Part shown: in pieces, positions 43,142-54,971 of the stretch | Position numbering within the stretch: the stretch's first letter is position 1 | How the letters are laid out: each line of letters opens with the position of its first letter | DNA from: Endocalyx cinctus | Lineage: Eukaryota > Ascomycota > Sordariomycetes > Amphisphaeriales > Apiosporaceae | Direction of reading: 5' to 3' | NCBI GenBank assembly: GCA_001600455.1 | Contig: BCKC01000001.1 | Span: forward strand, 828,914-892,913 | Length of the DNA: 64,000 nucleotides | Notes under the pieces: model-generated | What the model was told of the DNA's origin: nothing | Databases searched by the model: none | What the model saw: the letters and a program-made list of their open reading frames with translations, nothing else | Position numbers and translations under genes: made by a program

Positions 43142-43623
43142 AACTCCCAATGTAGCAACGCATAGCTAAATGTGGGAGCTCGAACTAATCCCCACCCCAG
43201 TCAGGTAGTTATGACTGCCTACATACTTATATTTCTGAATAATATGCTTTGTCCGTTTGTGATATTGGGTTTGACGTATTGTTGTGGTGATACAAGCTCC
43301 CTATTGGAGGCGACTATCTGTCTAACCTTGGTCACTCATCAGTGTCACCTTAAAAGGTTTCAGAGTATCCTCCTCACTCAAATATCTCTTACCCTCTTCA
43401 AGCGTCTCCTCCGTCAACATTTCTAGACAATTAAATCCGCGATACGAAATATACCTAAAGCCAGACTATCAGTCCCACATTTCTTGTGAGCTTGCGCCTT
43501 TGTCCCGATCAACAACAATCAAAACCCAAAAGCCTAGCAAGTCCTATATGTTAGGAAGACCGATGGATCTTGTTAGTAAGCCTCCTACTTCCTCATCCGA
43601 AAGATACGCATCACAACAGTTTC

Positions 43624-43886
43624 TGTCAGATTGTTAGAGCTTATGGAGGGTATTTGAGAGCTTGGTAATCATATTATGTAAATATCTCATTGGATTAGGG
43701 CTTAAGGAACTATCTATTTCTATGAATCGAACGGGAGCTCAACACCTTATTTATAATGCTTCCTGAGATGGTACTACGTAATTCAGGGGTTGGTCAATAA
43801 CTTAAACCGGGTTCATGAGCTTGATTCCACCCCGTAATATAACGTCTCCGAAACCAGGTCCCATTCAGTCCCACTTCTCCGTCACA
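43624..43886 (-). mobile_element. solo LTR (copy A), inverted relative to copy B
   Basis: On the minus strand it runs from TGTGACGGAGAAGTGGGACT to CTCTAACAATCTGACA, 263 bases, exactly the length of copy B at 54499-54761 and alike at all but about 18 positions by eye. Inside is a promoter-like CATTATAAATAAGG. The flanks (GTTTC and GTAGG) are not a good target duplication, so one side may have been rearranged. Confidence 0.75.
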
Positions 43887-44648
43887 GTAGGGTAGTGTAA
43901 TTATCACACCAACAATATAACTCCTGGAAGAGGTGTACTGCAGGGGTGTACTGTAGGTGGTAACCCAACTGCAGCTGTGCCATAATTTGATTCCGATGGA
44001 TACGGCATAATCAAGATCTAACGGCCACAATGCAATAACCAAAGCAGGCAAGTCGTCATACGCGCGCAATTGCAACCCAAATCATGCATATTTGATATGG
44101 CGGTCAAGATAACATTTTATTTTCAGCCTCATGGGGGTTGGCATCTAATAAGAGCTTACTGAGATGTTATATTTGCATATGTACGGAAACCAACAGCACA
44201 TGCGATGTTTTAGGCAAATGTGGTTAGGCTTTTCTTAGCACCTGTCGGCATGTTCGTCTTTAGTACCCCGAACCTGCTGTTAGTTACTGTACTCTGTGGT
44301 ACTCGCGTATCAAGGTAGGTAAAGGTATACTTTAATCCCACCCCTACTCATTCCACATTCCCATGGCGTGTGGCGTGCATGACTTGTTGGCTGCAGCAAT
44401 ACCAACATACTGGAAGTTTGCTTAAGAGTGTCTGAAGTGTATTAGATGCAAGACCTCGGTACTGCGATATGCAAGCTTTCTGAACTCCTTTCGACTCTCC
44501 TCTCCTTTGGACTAGGGTTTGGGGGAAGGGTGAGGGGAGAGGTTCAGATCGGGACGTTCAACATCGTCAATTCAGAGAAAGTAAGCTGTGAAATTCCTGC
44601 TTCAAGTTCCAGTCCCCCAATTATTTTGTAGCTTGTTATAACGTCAAA

Positions 44649-46041
44649 ATGGAAGAAGCTTTAAAAAGCATCGAACATCTGGCGAGGACGGTGGATGGAG
44701 AATCCCGCAAACGGCTCATAGGCGGACTTCAAAAACTCGCGTACTCACTTGAAACTCCCGACGACGCTCTGCACAGATATGGATCAATGGTAAGGACGAT
44801 ATGCCGTTATTAGCAATATGTGGCTACTGATGTAAATGTAGAATCTTCAAACCGCCGTCGTCATTATTGGGTTTGACCTTGGTCTTTTCAGGCGCGTTGT
44901 CAATGCAAAGAATCCCGTCGCTGTGGAACAGATTTCTGAGCAAGCCGGTGCCGATAAATTATTTCTAGGTTTTCAATGTCGATTAATCTATAATATGATA
45001 TGATTGCTAAACTTGAATAGGTCGAATCTTGAGATACCTTGCTGGTATTGGTGTTATTGACGAGCTCGGTAGCGGTCAATATGGCGCCAACCAAACCACC
45101 AGAAATCTGAGTGAGGACGTCGCTGAAGCTGGCATCAAACATTAATGTAATTTTTCTTCTTATGGGAATATTTAGACTATATCATCTTGCTTGCTAACTC
45201 TATTGCATCACCCCATAGTTTCGCCACGGTGTCACCGCAGTACCAAGCCCTTCCAGCTTTTCTGAAAAAGACGGCGTATCGAAACCCCACCGACGAACTA
45301 CATACCGCATTTCAAGATGCATGGAAGACATCTCTACACGGATTTTCCTGGTTCTCAGAGCATCCCGAGAACCTCGCCTACTTCAACGACTTCATGGCCT
45401 TCCGGCGCGAGCCTGAGCTCTCATGGCTCACGGTCTATCCTGTGATAGAACAAATAAAGGATTGGAGCCCAGAAAAGCTCTTATACGTCAACATAGGGGG
45501 GGGGGATCGGACATCAAAGTGCCCAGCTTCTTAATATGTACCCCGATATACCCGGCCGCGTGGTCTTGCAAGACTTGCCCCATTCAATCGCCAACGCCCT
45601 ACCTACCCCCAAGGTGGAAAACATGGTCCACGACTTTTTCGAGCCACAGCCCTTACAAGGTAAGTAAGAGAGTTCAGACGGCTCACACACTGTACGCATG
45701 CTGATTGATCTCAAATTCTTATGACAGGGGCCAAATTTTACTTCGTCAGAGGCGTACTACATAATCACCCACCGCATAAAGTTCGTAAGCTACTCGTCAA
45801 TATCAAGTCAGCCATGAGCTCGGAGTCCATCCTATTAATCGATGAAATCATCTTGCCGCAGACGGGCGCGCATATCGATGCGGTATCAATGGATATTACC
45901 ATGTTGTCCGCTTTCGCGGGCATGGAACGAACTGAACAACAATGGGATGCTATGTTTGATGAGGTGGGTTTGCAATTGGTCAAGACGTATATGTATAACC
46001 CAGTGAGCCACGAAGGGGTGATGGACATCCGATTGGCATGA
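44649..46041 (+). pseudogene. O-methyltransferase, damaged (frameshift in SAM motif, lost splice donor)
   Basis: SAM-dependent class II O-methyltransferase of fungal metabolite clusters. Exons 44649-44789, 44842-44968, 45021-45142, 45219-45659 and 45728-46041 carry MEEALKSIEHLARTV, a winged-helix part (GRILRYLAGIGVIDELGSG), YQALPAFLKKTAYRNPTD, the SAM motif, DIPGRVVLQDLPHSIANALP, FFEPQPLQGAKFYFVRGVLH and a C-terminal LLIDEIILPQTGA. There are two lesions. A run of ten G (45496-45505) shifts the frame inside VNIGGGIGHQS; nine would restore it. After exon 3 the reading meets TAA and no in-phase GT donor exists before GTAATT at 45147. Family length is otherwise complete. The G-run could be a sequencing error. 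The splice defect is independent of it. Confidence 0.75.
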
Positions 46042-46314
46042 ACCAAAAATTCGGTGCTGCTAGTAATTACGTATAACTTAATCTGTTACGAAGTAGAAAT
46101 ATAACACTGTGGAAGTTAATAAAGTGTCTGTCTTTGAATGAAGAGAAACAGCACAGGGTACATGAGTGCTTTCACAAGTGACGATTTAGTTAGATATGAT
46201 GATTATAAGAATGCAAATGGCCAGGTGGTAGAATGTATCATTGAGGATTTGGACATGCTATCTAACTAAGTTTTCCATACAACTCCACTACATCAGCATC
46301 GTCAAAAGTACGGC

Positions 46315-47232
46315 TCAAGTGGTTTTCACAAGATCTTTTTCTCTTTCAAGAAATTGCTGAAAGGTTGTTAACGATAAGACGGTAGACAGGTAGTTTAGAT
46401 CAATGTAATCGGGCATGTACCGCATTGATCTTTCGCATCGAGTCTGAACAGTGAGACCTTTGGGGTCCTGCAAGTCGATTTCCTCATCAGTCATGAAGGC
46501 AGTTTTGATGTTGCGACCCATGGCTGAGCCGAGTCTATCCATCACCTGCTGCGCCGTTAATAATTCGGTGGCGAGTCCGACGGCTTGGCCGTGAAATCGG
46601 GCCGGGTCCTGGAACCCGGATGTGGCGAAATGTGCGATATCCTCGTGGTCGATGAGGCCGAGAAGCGAGTCGGGCCTAAGGGTTGTCGTCCAGCAGCCCT
46701 GCTCCAATATCTCGGTGTAAATATTGATGTTGGGCTCGAGAAAGTTGGTCATGAAATAAGCTGGGCGCAAGAGGGTCCAGGAATCCATGCCGCCGTTGAC
46801 CACAGCCTCCTCAACGCCCTTTTTGGCGGCGAGGAGGCCGTACAGAACGGTTCCGGGTTCGAGCCGGTCATCCGTGCCGTACATAGAAACGCCGAGACTT
46901 GTCGACGAGATGATTTGTTTGACGCCTTCCGTTCTGGCAATTGAGACAATGTTCTCCGCCTGGCGTCTCTCTCGATCAGGGTCGTCGATGCAAGGCATAA
47001 GACACAAGAACAACTTGTCGCAACCCGCGATACTAGCACGAAGCGCCTCGCTGTTGTCCCAGTCACCAACGGTGATATTCACTCCTTGGCTCGCTAAGGC
47101 GATTGACTGGGCAGACTCCGGGTCACGAACCAATGTGTGAACTTTCCAGCCTATAGAGCGGAGTTGTCTAGCCAGCGCGCCGCCCTGGAATCCGGTGGCC
47201 CCAGAGACGAAGACGGTGTGGGTGGACGACAT
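46315..47232 (-). CDS. NmrA-like NAD(P)-binding protein
   Basis: Atypical SDR of the NmrA/isoflavone-reductase group; acts as a redox sensor, regulator or reductase. Single exon, 305 residues, start MSSTHTVFVSGATGFQGGAL with the GxxGxxG loop at residues 10-16. Next come KVHTLVRDPESAQSI (NADP-type Arg), GVNITVGDWDNSEALRASI, CDKLFLCLMP, VKQIISSTSLGVSMYG, a Lys in AAKKGVEEAVVNGGMDSWTL, RPAYFMTNFLEP and GLIDHEDIAHFA. It reads intact. It lies tail-to-tail with the O-methyltransferase (273 bases apart), and the P450 follows on the same strand. In clusters such proteins often reduce an intermediate. Confidence 0.87.
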   Translation of the reverse strand: MSSTHTVFVSGATGFQGGALARQLRSIGWKVHTLVRDPESAQSIALASQGVNITVGDWDNSEALRASIAGCDKLFLCLMPCIDDPDRERRQAENIVSIARTEGVKQIISSTSLGVSMYGTDDRLEPGTVLYGLLAAKKGVEEAVVNGGMDSWTLLRPAYFMTNFLEPNINIYTEILEQGCWTTTLRPDSLLGLIDHEDIAHFATSGFQDPARFHGQAVGLATELLTAQQVMDRLGSAMGRNIKTAFMTDEEIDLQDPKGLTVQTRCERSMRYMPDYIDLNYLSTVLSLTTFQQFLEREKDLVKTT

Positions 47233-48219
47233 GATAGACGATTAAGAGACCTAGAAGTATCTTTTACAGAGGAAGGAGACAGATGATGGAATAACAAAGT
47301 CAAATAAGTAAAATAAACACTTTCACTGAGGTTGGTTGGAACTTTAGGTAATAGCTGAAACTTCATGAGATTGAACTTGGGTAAGTAGCGATTGGGACGA
47401 AAATCTGGAATTAATATGTCTTCGTGCAAAAATTCGGCTTGATGCAATTCCCTTAGGGTCTAAAGTGTACTTGTTATCGCTTTAATACCATGGTACATAT
47501 ATAAGGTACGTAGTAAGTATGCTATTGTAGCCTAATACGAACCAACGTCCGTCAATACCCTAACTCATTCTACGTACCGACAAGTCGTAATCCTAATTTA
47601 CTTGTTGGTGTGGAAATAGCGTAATATTATTTAAAAACATTTCCAGTTAGGAACAGGGGAGTTGGGGGCGACAAACAGGGGATAGAAAAAGTGATGATCG
47701 GTGGCTGCTGGCAGGGTTCATAATTGTAGACACACCCCTTTAGTGGGGATCAAGATGCTACTTGTCGACAACATGGCATAGTGTGGCGGTGCTAAACAGA
47801 TGACTAACCCAGAGTCTTTTATTATTAGTTAAACCCCGCAAAGCTATATGTAGTTAGTTTCTAGTTTCATCATTAATCAAGATATAGCGAGTTGGCAGAG
47901 TCTTCTGTCTTGTTCTCTCTCTCATTATAGTCGTAGGTATTACGGAGTAGGTATTGTTGCAATAATGGTAATTAGGTAATTAGCTTAGAGATGTGGTTTG
48001 TGCACACACACCACCTACTTCTGAATGATTCTGTTGAACAGAATCATTCAACACCATATTCAATAGATCATCAACATCGTACTTTCGTTATTCTTTTTCC
48101 TTTTACGAATTCGTAAATTTGCCTCAACAGATATAAAGAAAAATAAATCAGCAGCCGAATTTTCTAATAAGTCGTATACGTACATATCGGTCCGATCTGA
48201 CAATACGTGTGTACATCAC
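47233..48219. other. intergenic between NmrA-like and P450 genes
   Basis: AT-rich with no supported gene. It holds TATATAAGG at about 47498, upstream of the NmrA gene, and the perfect palindrome listed at 48023-48049. Confidence 0.45.
48023..48049. repeat. perfect 27-base palindrome
   Basis: Arms GAATGATTCTGTT and AACAGAATCATTC are exact inverted copies around a single G. It could form a strong hairpin or be a dimer site. It lies 170 bases beyond the P450 stop and 790 bases before the NmrA start, so neither gene obviously owns it. Confidence 0.6.
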
Positions 48220-50004
48220 TTAATCCCGATGCAAAGCCGCAGTAGCAAATAATGCCCCCTTGCTTCTGGTTCCAATAGCAAACTGGTCACTTTCACATAA
48301 GAAATCCTGTGCACAAGCACCTTCAAGTTGAAAATCAAACCGTTGAACAAGAGCAGCGACAAGTATGTACATCTCGGCCCAAGCAAGGCTAGATAATCAC
48401 GCGAATTAGTAAAATATATTACGTCTTTCAATATTCCGTAAGGACAATGGATAGAGAATAAAATTAAAACTCACTGCATCCCAAGACAAACTCTCGTTCC
48501 TCTGGAGAATGGCGCAAATGTCTTATCTACTTTCTTCCGCGCATCGGGTTGCATCCACCTCTCGGGATTAAAGGTATGGGGATCGGGGTATATAGTATCA
48601 TCCGAGTGCATCAAGACAAGGGTCATTCCTACAGGAGTTCCGGCCGGTATTTTCCATTCGCCGTATGTAAGGTCTGTATTTGGTGATATACGTGCCATGC
48701 GTGTCGCGATAGCAGGACTGAGGCGGAGTCCCTCCATCAATGTAGCAGTAAGGTATGGTAACTGTTCTAAGCTTTTTAGTTCCGGTGTTCCGTGAGACTG
48801 CGACAATTCGTGGCGAATTCGTCGAAGAATCTCAGGGTTGTTGAACATATGGAAAAATATAACACGTAAGGCACTGGCTGTCGTCTCAAACCCGGCACCT
48901 GTGATGGTCGATACATCTTGGAATACACGGGTCGGAGTCTTTTCCGAAGGGGGGAGTTTGGACTCCATGATTTCGTGTACAATTGTACGACGGGCTGTGT
49001 CTTGTGATTTTACTTTGGCCATCAGGTTGAGCGCATCTTGCCGAGTTTCCTACTCCGCCATAACTCGCGTGAGAATGCGAAATTGCGGGTAATGGGTGGG
49101 ATCGAAGGGAAACTGGGCTGCGGTAGGGTGGTATAAACTTACCTCGACATGTTGAAAAAAGATTTTCGTCCCGTGATCACCAATCTTCATGATCCAGCTA
49201 ATCGGGATAGACATCAACAGAGTAGAGACGAAACGCACATGCTTAGACAGTCGCCAAATCTGACCGGAACCACCACTAGCAACAACCATGGCCTCATCAA
49301 AATCTTCGCGCCCCAGACTGTTATAGCTTTTACTAAGAATAAAATCATTAGCAACATCACGGGCAAACGCAGTAATGGCCGCGCCGAGGTTCAGGCGAGC
49401 GTTATTGAGACTTGATGTTTTATTAGCCGTGGCGAAGGCGGTAAGTCGAGCACAGAGCTTTTCTAAATGCGCATGGATAAGGTCCTGTTGGGCGGAAACT
49501 TTCGCTTTAGAAAAAAAGGGACCGAGAGGCTGTCGCCGCGCTTTGTGAAGGTCGTGACTCGATGTAAAAAGCGTGGCGCCATGGGCTGCAAATGCATCGA
49601 CAGTCCATGCATATTTGTCCCATTGACCGTCTTGACGATAAAGCGTTTCAAAGAATGCCGGGTCGCTAACGTGAAGTTCGAATGGAGAAATTCGTATCAT
49701 AGGTCCTAATATACCAACATATTATTTCAGGTTATAGTCAATTCAAAATTATAAGTATAGGATTTAATAATGGGACGAAAGAAATACCATATTGCTTATG
49801 CAATTCTGCAATCTTAAACGTATATTGCCCGTTTTGATAGACATCGTAATAAGCTTCGTACCATCGGGAAATAGCTGCCAGCTTTGGTCCAGGAAAACGG
49901 CTAAGCGGGTGGAGAAAAAGGCGATAAAAGATCAAGGTACAATAATAAGCGGTCACCGATACGATGATGCTCCGGAATGACAATAACGGAAATAAAAGCT
50001 CCAT
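48220..50004 (-). CDS. cytochrome P450 monooxygenase
   Basis: ER-anchored heme oxygenase of metabolite pathways. Four exons. The start MELLFPLLSFRSIIVSV is a membrane anchor, followed by LFLHPLSRFPGPKLAAIS (Pro-rich hinge). Splicing links KQYG to PMIRISPFELHVSDP and, over 49050-49142, HVE to ETRQDALNLMAKV. The I-helix is GAGFETTAS, the K-helix EGLRLS gives ExxR, FNPERW is the PERF block, and FAPFSRGTRVCLGM is the heme loop with the Cys ligand. A last intron joins LGM to HLAWAEMYILVAALVQRFDF, ending LHRD at 48220. About 510 residues, all key motifs intact. It appears to be one of only two undamaged genes of this cluster. Confidence 0.88.
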
Positions 50005-51003
50005 AATAAAATATAACGTTTGATAGCTAGTAACAGGAGAAAAACAACACTAGCAAAATGAACTCAAAGGAAAAAAAAAAAGGGAAAAATGAAAAAGATG
50101 ATAAGAATGGGGCAAAAGAGCAAGAAAACGTGGGCATCGCAAAGTTCCTGAAAATTAGGTACCTACCTGCCAGCCTGCCTACCTAACGAGCTACCTTATA
50201 ACTGCCTGACTTATCTACTTACCATTTATCATATTTTTTATGTTGCTTTTAGGAGTTGAAATGTAAGTAAGTACGAGGCAGTATATGCATGCACCAGGCG
50301 GCCTTGGTGCACTAGCCAAAATAAACACCCCACCCGTAATACTAGTAGATACGGTTTTAAGTACTTAAGTACCTACTTAGTACCTAGCCTGCCTACCTAG
50401 GTAGGTTACCAGGTAGGTACCCTGGGTACGTAGAGACGATGACAGGGATGTATATCCTAGACTATAGTTACATCTCAGGAAAGCCGAAAAGTCCCGTACC
50501 GTAGCGTAGTATAGGTCATAATTATTGGAGGCCTGGAGGCAGAAAAAATGTGTAAGATGCTTGGATTTTTCCAGTTTCTATAAGTACTATCTTCCTGAAT
50601 TAAGTATGTACATGTAGCAGAAAGAAAATCTGTTAAAGCGATATGATTTTATAACCTAGTTAGTTACCTGAAGGGTGGAACAGGGTACTTTGTACCTACT
50701 ACCCACCTAACAAATCGGATATTAGCGGGGGCCGGGTCCTACCGGCAGATTTTGTGACGCAGGTCGGCTGCGGCAGCTGTGCAGTGCCGCAACGAGCAGA
50801 ACCAGTCAGTTTCAACCAAGTCACTAAATCCTTCATCGTTATTTACATTGTCATGTCTCATTCGTCCAGTTCACAATTTACTTCTTGTCCAAAGAGGTAG
50901 ATTTTCATATACAAAACATCATATCATTATCATCATTAACTATTTAATCGTTTAAAATATATATTTATATTGAGAAACATCGATAGTGACTAGGGGCATC
51001 ACA
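50005..51003. other. divergent promoter region, P450 and MFS
   Basis: The P450 and the transporter point away from each other, so these 1.0 kb hold both promoters. The stretch 50150-50420 is built of CCTACCTA/TAGGTAGG and AAGTACTTAAGTACC words, a low-complexity pattern common between genes here (also 53.3-53.4 kb). No gene is seen. Confidence 0.5.
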
Positions 51004-53221
51004 ATGGCTTCTCCCGAACATGCTGAAGTGAAAACTTCCTCTCAAATTCACCAAGAAGAATCGACAGCCGTTGTTCAACAAGCCCTAATCACTGGCGCCC
51101 CTTCTGCAGCTGAACAATTTAAGGCAGAATCAGACCGCCCGAGTCTGAATCAATATGTGACGGGTATCAAGCTGGTCGTGATCGTTGCTAGTGTAGCTTT
51201 AGCATGCTTCCTCATGCTTATTGATACTATGGTTATTAGCACGGTAGGATCTTGTACCATAATTTGGGATGTGTACTTTTATATCTGCATGAAAATACAA
51301 GTCCAGCTGACATCGACTTCGTTTTCACAAAGGCTATCCCTCGAATTACCGATGAGTTTAACTCGCTACCAGACGTCGGTTGGTATGCGAGTGCCTACCA
51401 GTTTGGTAGGTGAGTGACTGCCTTTCGTATTTCGTCCCTTTCGAGTCCCCATCGCCCTTCTAATTAAACGTTAATTCAGCGCCGCACCGCAACCACTAGC
51501 GGGCAAAATATATACCCATTTTAAGCTCAAGGTTTGTATTGTCCCTCTATATTTTTAACATGGTCCTCATATGCTTCGATATCAATATATAACTCACGAA
51601 TATATCGTTTATAGTGGTCCTTTCTCGTCTTCTTCGGTATTTTTGAACTAGGTTCTGTCCTCTGCGGCGCCGCCCCCTCCTCGGTAGTCCTTATAATTGG
51701 CCGTGCAGTGGCTGGTCTAGGCGCTGCCGGAATCATCAATGGAGCTATCATCATCATCTCCGGTTGTGCTCCTTTGGAGAAGCGTGCAGGTAAATCAAGC
51801 TTGACATTTCTGGTCAGAATTCTCATTGACGAATATGAATTTACTAGGTTTAATCGGCTTGACCGTGGGCCGTATGTGCTCGTCCCTTTCCTGTCCACAC
51901 AACAGTCCATTGTATCATCAAGTTTCGTTCTCACCATTTTGAAAATAGTTAGCCAATTAGGTTTAGCCCTTGGCCCTCTTATTGGCGGGGCACTCACCAC
52001 GTACGCTTCGTGGAGATGGTGTAAGAATCCTTAACAATTTCATCCCGGCAGGCGGCGAAAAAAGAGAATCGTTCCACATCTAATCTTTCAAACATAGGCT
52101 TCTATATCAATCTGCCTATTGGCGCAGTAACTGCCCTGGTAATCGCTTCAGTCCACGTACCAGAGCAGATACCTAAAGCAAACGCGACCGAGGTCTTCTC
52201 GAAGTTATATCACTATCTCGACCTCTCAGGGTTCGTTCTGTTTGCCCCATCCGTCCTCCAACTCTTGCTCGCTCTCCAGTATGGAGGCAACGCGTTCGCG
52301 TGGGGGTCATCTCAGGTCATTGGCCTCTTCGTTGGCTCCGTCGCCAACTTCGCAGTTTGGCTTCTTTGGAATCGATATAAAGGTGATAGTGCTCTACTCC
52401 CTCATTCAATGATCTGTCGAAGGACGGTCTGGACGGCTGGTTTATATCAGGCCCTCTTCCTTTCCGCTCTCTACGGGGCGACGTATTATCTTCCCTTATA
52501 CTTCCAAGCGATCAACGGTGCGCCGGCTTTCCTGAGTGGCGTCTACCTTCTCCCGACAATTTTACCTGAATTATTCTCGGCTGCGGCAGCGGGAGCAATC
52601 TGTGAGTTTTACAAACCTGTTCACTCGCCACGGATTTAGCATGTGTGCGGTTTGCTTTCACGAGTTTAGTTATTGACCCATTATAGTGATGAAAGTGGGA
52701 TATGCGATTCCTCCGATCTTTGTAGCTTCTACTCTAGTTGCCACCGGAAGTGGCCTGTACTCTTTACTCCGACCTGGCAGTCCGACAGGTTGGTGGGTTG
52801 GATTTCAAATCATTGCTGGCGTGGGGTCAGGGCTTGGGCTAAACTTGGTCAGCCAACACATCTCCTAATTATCTCAGAAAAACTTTAGGATTAGCTAATC
52901 ATAATTTTCATTTTCTAGGCAATTATCGCGGTACAAGCTGCCGTGTCTGAACAGGAGTTATCTTCAGCTATGGCTTTTGTCGTATTTACGCAATCACTAG
53001 GGCCAGCCATCTTCTTAGCGTTAAGCAACGTCATATTCGTTGAGAGCCTCAAATCACAATTACCCCAACAAGCGCCAGGAATCGACACAATGGCAATTAT
53101 CAAGGCTGGCGCCACGCATTTCCGCGAAATTGTGTCGCCACAAGTTGGCGGATCCGTATTTGGGGGCGTATCGGTGAGAGCCATGCGAAATGTGTCATTG
53201 GGGTCCAGAACTAACCCCTGA
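51004..53221 (+). pseudogene. DHA2-type MFS drug transporter, C-terminus lost
   Basis: Proton-driven efflux pump family with 14 segments. The ATG at 51004 (MASPEHAEVKTSS) is followed by about eight short introns. TM1 is VVIVASVALACFLMLIDTMV, then [36 protein letters not shown], the antiporter motif LALGPLIGGALTTYASWRW, CFYINLPIGAV, YYLPLYFQAINGAPAFLSGV and AVSEQELSSAMAFVVFTQSL. After THFREIVSPQVGGS, where relatives continue into segment 14, the reading turns into unrelated residues and stops at 53219-53221. A matching segment-14 tail lies at 54822-54971. So the gene is split, with 1.6 kb of foreign DNA in its last exon. The shortened product may be inactive. Confidence 0.75.
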
Positions 53222-53618
53222 TAAAGATGTAACGCAATATAAGTATCTAGTATAGTTACCTTAAGGTAGTACGTAGCTGCTTATACATCAATATCGACCC
53301 CGCACCACGTAATTACGTGATATTAAGTGCCGGAGGGCGCCCAGTGCAAGGATAAGAAAGGTACATGCATATAAATGTACTTATATACCTACCTCCCTAG
53401 GTACCTAGTTATGTACTTAAGTACCAACTAGCCTAGGTAATTAGATACGACTGTTGTCGGGTACGGCATAGTGTGTATCTACCGAAGCAATGTTCAAACG
53501 CCCTTGTGTGCATTTCCCCCGTCTCTGCTGGTCCCAAGGAATCTACTTTTCGAAGAGACAAACACACTTGTGTCTACATAGGTCACAATTGTATCAGATC
53601 CGCAGTCAAAAATCTGCT
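53222..53618. other. low-complexity spacer before the GST
   Basis: Contains TACCTACCTCCCTAGGTACCTA-like words at 53380-53420. Part of 53192-53260 may be a very diverged LTR fragment (ACTAACCCCTGATAAAG resembles an inner LTR word), but I cannot support that firmly. Confidence 0.35.
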
Positions 53619-54520
53619 ATGGGCCAGTTTTATACGCCCGATACGCCGGCGGAAGTCAAGAGTGCCAAAGGTATCCATATACTCACGGCTAATACGGGAA
53701 ATGGCCAATCTATACAAATCTACCTCGAGGAGCTTGCCGAAACCTATGGCATTTCTTGGACCTCAAGTCTCATTAACATATGGTCTAACGAGAACAAAAA
53801 AGAGTGTACGTTGTGAAATAGGAAGTGAGCTAGTGACAGCTTTATCTAATGTAGTATAGGGTTTCTTCGACTGAATCCCAATGGTCGCATCCCCGTGGTG
53901 ATTGACAACAAGCATACTCCACCTATTACCGTGCACGAGTCCTCGGCCAGCCTACTCTATCTACTTGAAGATGTAGATATTGAGAAGAAGTTTGGGTTTA
54001 AGGATAAACTTGAGCATAACGAGCTGCTTTAATGGCTGTTCTTCTGACACGGCTCTGGTGCGCCTTACCAAGGGCAGCTGATTTACTTCTCTAAGGCCGC
54101 GCCGGAGAAGATGGAGTGTTAGTGAGATCGTCCTATCATATAGCCGCAATAGAGATCATAAGAAACTGATCCAATCCTTGATCCATTTTAGACGCAATCT
54201 CTCGATATCGAAAAGAAACTCTGCGCGTCTTCGGCGTGCTTGAGATTCGTCTTTCTGGGAAGTTTACCGGCCAGCCCAGAGATTATCTAGCGGGCGCTGG
54301 GAAGGGCAAGTACTCCATCGCCGATATCAAAACCTGGCCTTGGGTCAGCTATTGGGAAACGTGCGGCATCACCAGAGAAGACTTGGAAGGGTTCCCATAC
54401 TTGCGGGACTGGATTGACAGGATCTCGCAGAGACCTGCTGTTAAAGCTGGAACCGGGCCGAAGTACAATCCGGGGCAGTTGGAAAGTATCTTAGTATGTG
54501 TGACGGAGGAGGGGGATTGA
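53619..54520 (+). pseudogene. glutathione S-transferase-like gene with two stop codons and an LTR in its 3' end
   Basis: Glutathione S-transferase of the URE2/GTT type, which conjugates glutathione to electrophiles. It begins MGQFYTPDTPAEVKSAKGIH, with a thioredoxin-like half (NGQSIQIYLEELAETYGISW, and after an intron FLRLNPNGRIPVVIDNKH, VHESSASLLYLLEDV). The C-terminal helical half reads ELL-TAA-WLFF-TGA-HGSGAPYQGQ. Relatives read ELLQWLFFWHGSGAP, so the TAA (54030-54032) and TGA (54045-54047) sit at Gln and Trp positions. A second intron leads to AISRYRKETLRVFGVLEIRL and YSIADIKTWPWV. The last seven codons are LTR sequence. The product cannot be full length. Confidence 0.8.
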
Positions 54521-54761
54521 ATGGGACTTGGTATCGGAGACGTTAAATTAAGGGGTGGAATCAAGCTTACTTACCCGGTTTGAGTTATTGACCAACCCCT
54601 GAATTACGTAGTACCAGCTCAGGAAGCATTATAAATAAGGTGTTGAGCTCCTGTTCGATTCATAGAAATAGATAGTTCCTTAAGCCCTAATTCAATGAGA
54701 TATTTACATAATATGATTACCAAGCTCTCAAATACCCTCCACAAGCTCTAACAATCTGACA
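54499..54761 (+). mobile_element. solo LTR (copy B) inserted in the GST 3' end
   Basis: 263 bases from TGTGACGG to AATCTGACA, same length as copy A. Flanking pentamers are GTATG (54494-54498) and GTATA (54762-54766), a target duplication with one transition. Inner features are a promoter-like CATTATAAATAAGG and a GAGCTCCTGTTCG word. There is no gag or pol around it, so it is a solo LTR. It supplies the final codons and stop of the GST reading frame. Confidence 0.8.
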
Positions 54762-54770
54762 GTATACTTG

Positions 54771-54821
54771 ATATGATTGCCAAGCTCCCGATTGCCCTCC
54801 ACAAGCTCTAATAATCTGACA
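54771..54821 (+). mobile_element. truncated LTR 3' end, same family
   Basis: ATATGATTGCCAAGCTCCCG and the following ACAAGCTCTAATAATCTGACA repeat the last 50 bases of copy B with several changes. It is closer to copy C in AGCTCCCG. It ends at the LTR terminus, exactly where the transporter tail begins, so an older insertion broke the MFS gene at this point. Confidence 0.65.
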
Positions 54822-54971
54822 GTTCTGGTGTCCTATAACACCGCAATAACATCGACATTCATAGTCGGCTTGGTCCTGGCCTCTTTCAGTATTATCGGTG
54901 TTATATTTGTAGAACGGAGGAGCGTCAAGACCTCAGAGGGTAAGAAGGTGGTGCCGGATGATGTGGCTTGA
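54822..54971 (+). pseudogene. stranded C-terminal exon part of the DHA2 MFS transporter
   Basis: In frame it reads VLVSYNTAITSTFIVGLVLA, then SFSIIGVIFVERRSVKTSEG and a stop after PDDVA. This is the last membrane segment and cytoplasmic tail seen at the end of 14-segment DHA2 transporters, and it is the very part missing from the gene ending at 53221. Joined in thought after VSPQVGGS it would complete a normal C-terminus. It has no start of its own. Confidence 0.65.

Follow-up and report, generated by a model that had tools for sequence, protein, structure and literature searches.

The window analysed here, a 64,000-nucleotide stretch of DNA from Endocalyx cinctus (contig BCKC01000001.1; C1:828914-892913 in a single assembly of 44.76 Mb on 15 contigs), contains a cluster of five genes together with a pair of inverted repeats. 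The genes encode an O-methyltransferase (OMT), an NmrA-like protein, a cytochrome P450 (P450), a DHA2-type MFS transporter and a glutathione S-transferase (GST), and both they and the repeat pair are real. We conclude that in this Xylariales-like fungus a small accessory cluster of metabolic genes, with no backbone synthase, is probably shrinking to a P450–NmrA core. The proposed core would be P450 followed by NmrA on the same strand; both genes read whole, and the pair recurs in other ascomycetes. Around this core, OMT, GST and the transporter would be decaying as accessories while P450 and NmrA survive.

Whole and broken genes of the cluster

The coding features of the cluster, in positions of the window, are:
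46318-47232, minus strand: NmrA-like NAD(P)-binding protein, intact; 305 residues from ATG in one open frame; PF05368, E 7.4e-31
48220-50004, minus strand: P450; open over 507 residues once spliced, with haem motif
51004-53148, plus strand: exons 1-9 of the DHA2-type MFS transporter; open up to the insert, with homology as far as 53143
53143-54482, no strand given: GST-bearing insert in the transporter (insert proper 53149-54476), with AGTTGG at 53143-53148 and 54477-54482
53619-54476, plus strand: GST pseudogene with a GST_C match; three exons, the second with two in-frame stops, and lacking its own stop codon
54825-54971, plus strand: coding piece for the C-terminus of the transporter; 48 codons plus a stop, on the same strand as exons 1-9
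44649-46041, plus strand: OMT, either a pseudogene or damaged in the assembly; six coding pieces, with PF00891 on the last

Pfam matches above cut-off were obtained for OMT (last piece), NmrA, P450 and GST_C. The transporter was recognised from pieces below the curated cut-offs (MFS_1 and, on one piece, TIGR00711, the DHA2 model) and from its paralogues, and the five genes named in an earlier note on this DNA are thereby borne out. That note had also called NmrA and P450 intact, as they are: NmrA is a single open frame, and P450 is open once its three introns, 82, 93 and 86 nt long, are spliced out (exons 49788-50004, 49143-49705, 48475-49049 and 48220-48388). The introns of P450 and of the transporter were set by hand from GT...AG sites and homology, with no predictor used. 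An apparent P450 stop at 49050-49052 was rejected as a lesion, being the end of an intron. The best named homologues among the matches listed were 60% (NmrA), 69% (P450) and 75% (GST) identical, and came mostly from Xylariales.

The remaining three of the five genes appear broken, and OMT, GST and the transporter each carry separate lesions, with a caveat for OMT over a run of G residues. These had been described as a slip, stop codons and a split gene. The 10-G run of OMT, the stops of GST and the split of the transporter were all recovered, while the stops that seemed to interrupt the transporter before 53143 proved to be intronic. The picture of a cluster caught partway through loss, in which whole genes lie beside broken ones, is supported, and repeat DNA is directly involved in the break of the transporter.

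Repeat-induced point mutation (RIP) was rejected as the origin of the stop codons, since its indices were ordinary. Its signature was absent both from the cluster (TpA/ApT 0.87 and CpA+TpG 1.10, compared with 0.88 and 1.06 for the window) and from 42 pooled rows of the repeat (0.97 and 1.03). No second copy of the cluster was found in the genome, in which the best paralogue of NmrA is only 32% identical.

P450 and NmrA homologues are linked in other ascomycetes

Do the two whole genes keep company elsewhere? We compared the contigs of 54 NmrA, 116 P450 and 25 GST rows out of 120 listed for each; the GST rows left out were the other named rows, picked by eye as species outside the other lists. 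Homologues of P450 and NmrA lay on a shared contig in 11 of the 22 species common to both lists, against about 1.1 expected for genes scattered over 45 Mb in proportion to length. The pairs in these 11 species (from Monosporascus, Apiospora, Xylaria, Annulohypoxylon, Mollisia, Botrytis and others) resemble the pair here, at 54-65% identity for P450 and 44-60% for NmrA. The two genes carry consecutive tags in Monosporascus sp. MG133 (DL767_001475/001476) and Apiospora marii (PG991_008220/008221); in Monosporascus sp. mg162 and Hypoxylon texense their locus tags are close. One model from Botrytis deweyae (P0235; 686 residues) fuses the two homologues in the order seen here, P450 and then NmrA, and is probably two adjacent genes merged by annotation.

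GST also shows linkage. It was on the contig of P450 in 3 of 10 species (0.54 expected) and on that of NmrA in 1 of 5 (0.11 expected). The three best GST matches (75, 74 and 68% identical) each share a contig with P450 (two species) or with NmrA, and in Annulohypoxylon sp. FPYF3050 the P450 and GST tags are consecutive (ABKA04_005896/005897). The fourth case, from Thozetella, is row 117 of the 120 for GST and could be due to chance. Unlike the pseudogene here, which lies inside the transporter, a GST of 245 residues stands on the contig of P450 in Biscogniauxia marginata and Annulohypoxylon sp. FPYF3050. The earlier note would have counted it as a refutation if related genomes never showed the five genes clustered; for P450, NmrA and GST this is not what was seen, as shared contigs were found. 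Among the literature titles listed, we found none describing this gene set or the P450–NmrA pair.

Two matches came from outside the ascomycetes. A P450 58% identical to that here (P0142) is from the basidiomycete Mycena venus, amid ascomycete homologues, and reflects either transfer or contamination. A GST 66% identical (P0287), on a 2.7-kb contig of Phytophthora cactorum, looks like fungal contamination.

The transporter is split by an insert that carries GST

The transporter has eight introns of 58-89 nt, and its best paralogue (C1:7038428) is 40% identical over residues 74-507. It is broken by the 1.33-kb GST-bearing insert and by repeat DNA. At the right end of the insert, GST homology stops at 54475, the stop codon is missing where the best homologues end, and the frame runs on past that point. 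The right-hand member of the inverted repeat pair, W2, starts 16 bases past the second AGTTGG. On its far side, the C-terminal piece of the transporter matches the C-terminal ends of three paralogues, with 21, 13 and 12 identical residues. These alignments lie 7-10 residues past that of the last exon, and in each of the three 0 of 1000 shuffles scored as high. The two pieces of the transporter align in order with three paralogues. A tblastn search with the C-terminal piece (54825-54971) gave no significant match.

The simplest reading is that the GST-bearing insert and LTR (long terminal repeat) DNA entered the transporter no more than about 20 bases apart. The AGTTGG repeats, the end of the GST homology and the transporter piece beyond suggest that GST moved into the transporter as DNA, with its introns. 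As the insert and the LTR DNA lie so close, both may stem from one repair event, perhaps at the same double-strand break. When a second copy of the GST piece was sought as its source, the sole result was a 117-bp match of 79% on C5, the rest of the window holding nothing meaningful, and no convincing terminal inverted repeats were seen on the insert by eye.

These observations admit a more specific proposal, which we regard as possible but on balance unlikely. P450 and NmrA would form a self-sufficient two-enzyme module that has its own function, is held by selection and is kept in many ascomycetes; the erosion around it would be selective, removing accessories; and GST would have left a former position close to P450 and been pasted into the transporter, together with LTR fragments, in a single break-repair event. 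One accessory gene would then have destroyed another.

The lesions of OMT

The coding pieces of OMT lie at 44649-44786, 44842-44970, 45023-45145, 45220-45504, 45503-45664 and 45727-46041. A stop codon ends the third piece, and the frame changes within a run of ten G residues (45496-45505), the sole run of G or C of at least eight in the 64 kb. Part of the apparent decay might then be an artefact, the frame change of OMT arising from a G run miscounted in the assembly. The position of the change in the window's only such run speaks for this, but the stop that closes the third piece is a further lesion outside the run, and the stops of GST and the split of the transporter lie outside it too. We consider this explanation unlikely.

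A possible lost synthase and the likely function

Within 220 kb of the cluster there was no match to ketosynthase, condensation, DMATS or Terpene_syn_C_2. The nearest on C1 were a ketosynthase match at 1104634, about 221 kb off, and condensation (5426505), DMATS (3899484) and Terpene_syn_C_2 (7056648) matches, the latter three all at least 3 Mb away. A TRI5 search gave no match here and none in any control, and is uninformative.

The earlier note took the locus for a biosynthetic cluster minus its backbone synthase, its genes being tailoring leftovers of which P450 and NmrA have not yet been hit. The gene types are indeed typical of tailoring enzymes, and the closest solved chains to OMT are LepI, OxaC and MpaG', which have biosynthetic roles. 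Against this stand the lack of any of these four synthase-type matches within that distance and the recurrence of the P450–NmrA pair across many species. For the polyketide synthase or non-ribosomal peptide synthetase that had been suggested as the lost partner we found no evidence, there being no ketosynthase or condensation match nearby, and we hold the reading to be unlikely.

Decay of biosynthetic clusters is itself documented, which speaks for this reading. In the part of one report used here (PMC5711037), secondary-metabolite clusters of Aspergillus fumigatus carry frameshifts and stops in more than one gene and have transposable elements at some, much as in our window, so the kind of event is not new. 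Unlike the present case, a single genome in which no backbone gene was found, those clusters have backbone genes and vary between strains (in the same part of PMC5711037).

Given the absence of these synthase-type matches within 220 kb, a cluster for detoxification or modification is no less likely than one for synthesis that is devoid of a synthase. We tentatively prefer work on an outside compound, to which we give somewhat less than even odds, to synthesis, which would be unlikely. Originally, the cluster likely oxidised and reduced an aromatic or terpenoid compound; methylation, conjugation to glutathione and export would have been side functions. A partial parallel is the FDB1 cluster of Fusarium verticillioides, which serves benzoxazolinone detoxification and whose gene table, in the portion of the source drawn on, includes an NmrA-like protein and an MFS transporter (PMC4726666). 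FDB1 differs in its enzymes, an amidase, a dienelactone hydrolase and Mbl1, and neither 'P450' nor 'glutathione' was found in the main text (PMC4726666).

The inverted repeats do not enclose the cluster

Three pieces of one repeat family lie at the locus:
43624-43886, plus strand: W1, left 263-bp solo-LTR-like repeat; TG...CA ends, flanks agreeing at 2 of 5 bases (no target-site duplication)
54499-54762, minus strand: W2, right 263-bp solo-LTR-like repeat; TG...CA ends, flanks agreeing at 4 of 5 bases
54765-54823, minus strand: LTRx, 59-bp remnant of a second copy from this family; 86% identical to the corresponding end of W2, abutting the C-terminal piece of the transporter

W1 and W2 form inverted arms of 264 nt (43623-43886 and 54499-54762) that are 94% complementary, with 10,612 nt between them. 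The family has 41 matched copies in the genome, a lower bound, as 40 of 151 first-look candidates were scored. The ends of partly aligned copies were extrapolated, and the 42 rows represent 41 distinct copies (C6:14340 was counted twice). A perfect 5-bp target duplication was present in 21 of the 41, and four more had one with a single mismatch; copy ends across the family were TG...CA or similar. The copies thus behave like solo LTRs, and with such ends, and 5-bp duplications in about half of copies, they resemble those of a fungal LTR retrotransposon. Unlike the latter, none of the 41 has a reverse-transcriptase or integrase match within 40 kb.

No parent element with this LTR was found: the genome gave three rve matches, all below cut-off and all at contig ends, and seven RVT_1 matches, and the repeat was absent from the 6-kb contig ends that carry integrase open reading frames (ORFs). 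The interval between the copies at C6:14340 and C6:22179 was rejected as a full-length retroelement, as it contains an MFS-like ORF of 549 residues. At contig ends (C8:1-2.7 kb, C8:2586.5-2592.5 kb and the end of C12), three integrase matches are of equal score, as are two reverse-transcriptase matches, which looks like assembly breaks caused by a young multi-copy element. Elsewhere, two family copies lie 27 bp apart in opposite orientation (C2:4549212-4549484, plus strand, and 4549512-4549774, minus strand), one of them 79% identical to W1.

Pairs of copies within 10.9 kb are expected by chance 0.4 times genome-wide with 41 copies, or 5.5 times if all 151 candidates were copies, and three such pairs, W1-W2 included, were observed among the 41. 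With two further close pairs present, the flanking pair alone is weak evidence. A 263-base LTR in opposite orientation on each side had been reported, and the inverted pair is confirmed; the enclosure is not, as the right repeat lies inside the transporter, whose C-terminal piece stands beyond it. Since the transporter straddles W2 on one strand, the repeats do not mark the border of the cluster, and the interval keeps the orientation of the DNA around it.

The inverted, closely complementary arms had raised the prospect that recombination between them flips the 10.6 kb, which is very improbable given that the transporter pieces on either side of W2 share a strand, that the flanks which a flip should have made into pairs agree at 2 of 5 and 0 of 5 bases (a hand count), and that one orientation, with no exchanged flanks, was seen in the one assembly. 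Equally improbable is that the cluster is cargo of a composite LTR element bounded by both repeats: a repeat does lie to each side and W1 has no target-site duplication, but the right repeat cuts a cluster gene instead of bounding the cluster, the repeats are inverted and not direct, and the 64-kb window has no RVT_1 or rve match.

Beyond W1, the nearest large ORF carries a HET domain (PF06985; 40483-42501, minus strand).

Discussion

How well does the proposal of a cluster shrinking to its P450–NmrA core stand? Several points weigh against it. The shared contigs of relatives were taken from equally long contigs and from locus tags, not from DNA, and linkage was examined for three of the five genes, P450, NmrA and GST. 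The frame change in the G run of OMT could be an assembly error. The search for synthases did not extend to A-domain-only synthetases or to other terpene-synthase families.

Substitution rates add little. In alignments of the 30 best rows per search with the sequence here (31 in all, orthology of the rows being unproven), P450 and NmrA had no private changes at otherwise invariant columns and GST had three, its terminal branch being 0.229 where the median was 0.081. Two facts count on the other side: zero private changes is common (22 of 31 NmrA and 16 of 31 P450 sequences), and in Xylaria grammica the GST linked to the cluster (P0243) is free of stops yet shows five private changes and a branch of 0.296, both higher than in the broken gene. 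We therefore rejected the difference in rate between GST and the whole genes as proof of decay. The substitution patterns fit survival of the core, as weak evidence, and the argument is carried by the intact frames and not by rates. The same test cannot tell survival by selection from luck, a point in favour of tailoring leftovers from a cluster that lost its synthase.

The interest of the shrinking cluster lies in its legible order of loss: the survivors are the genes that stay together in other fungi. As that order can be read here, the locus offers a testable case of a cluster shrinking to its core. The recurrent P450–NmrA pair, for which we saw no assigned function, is worth assaying.

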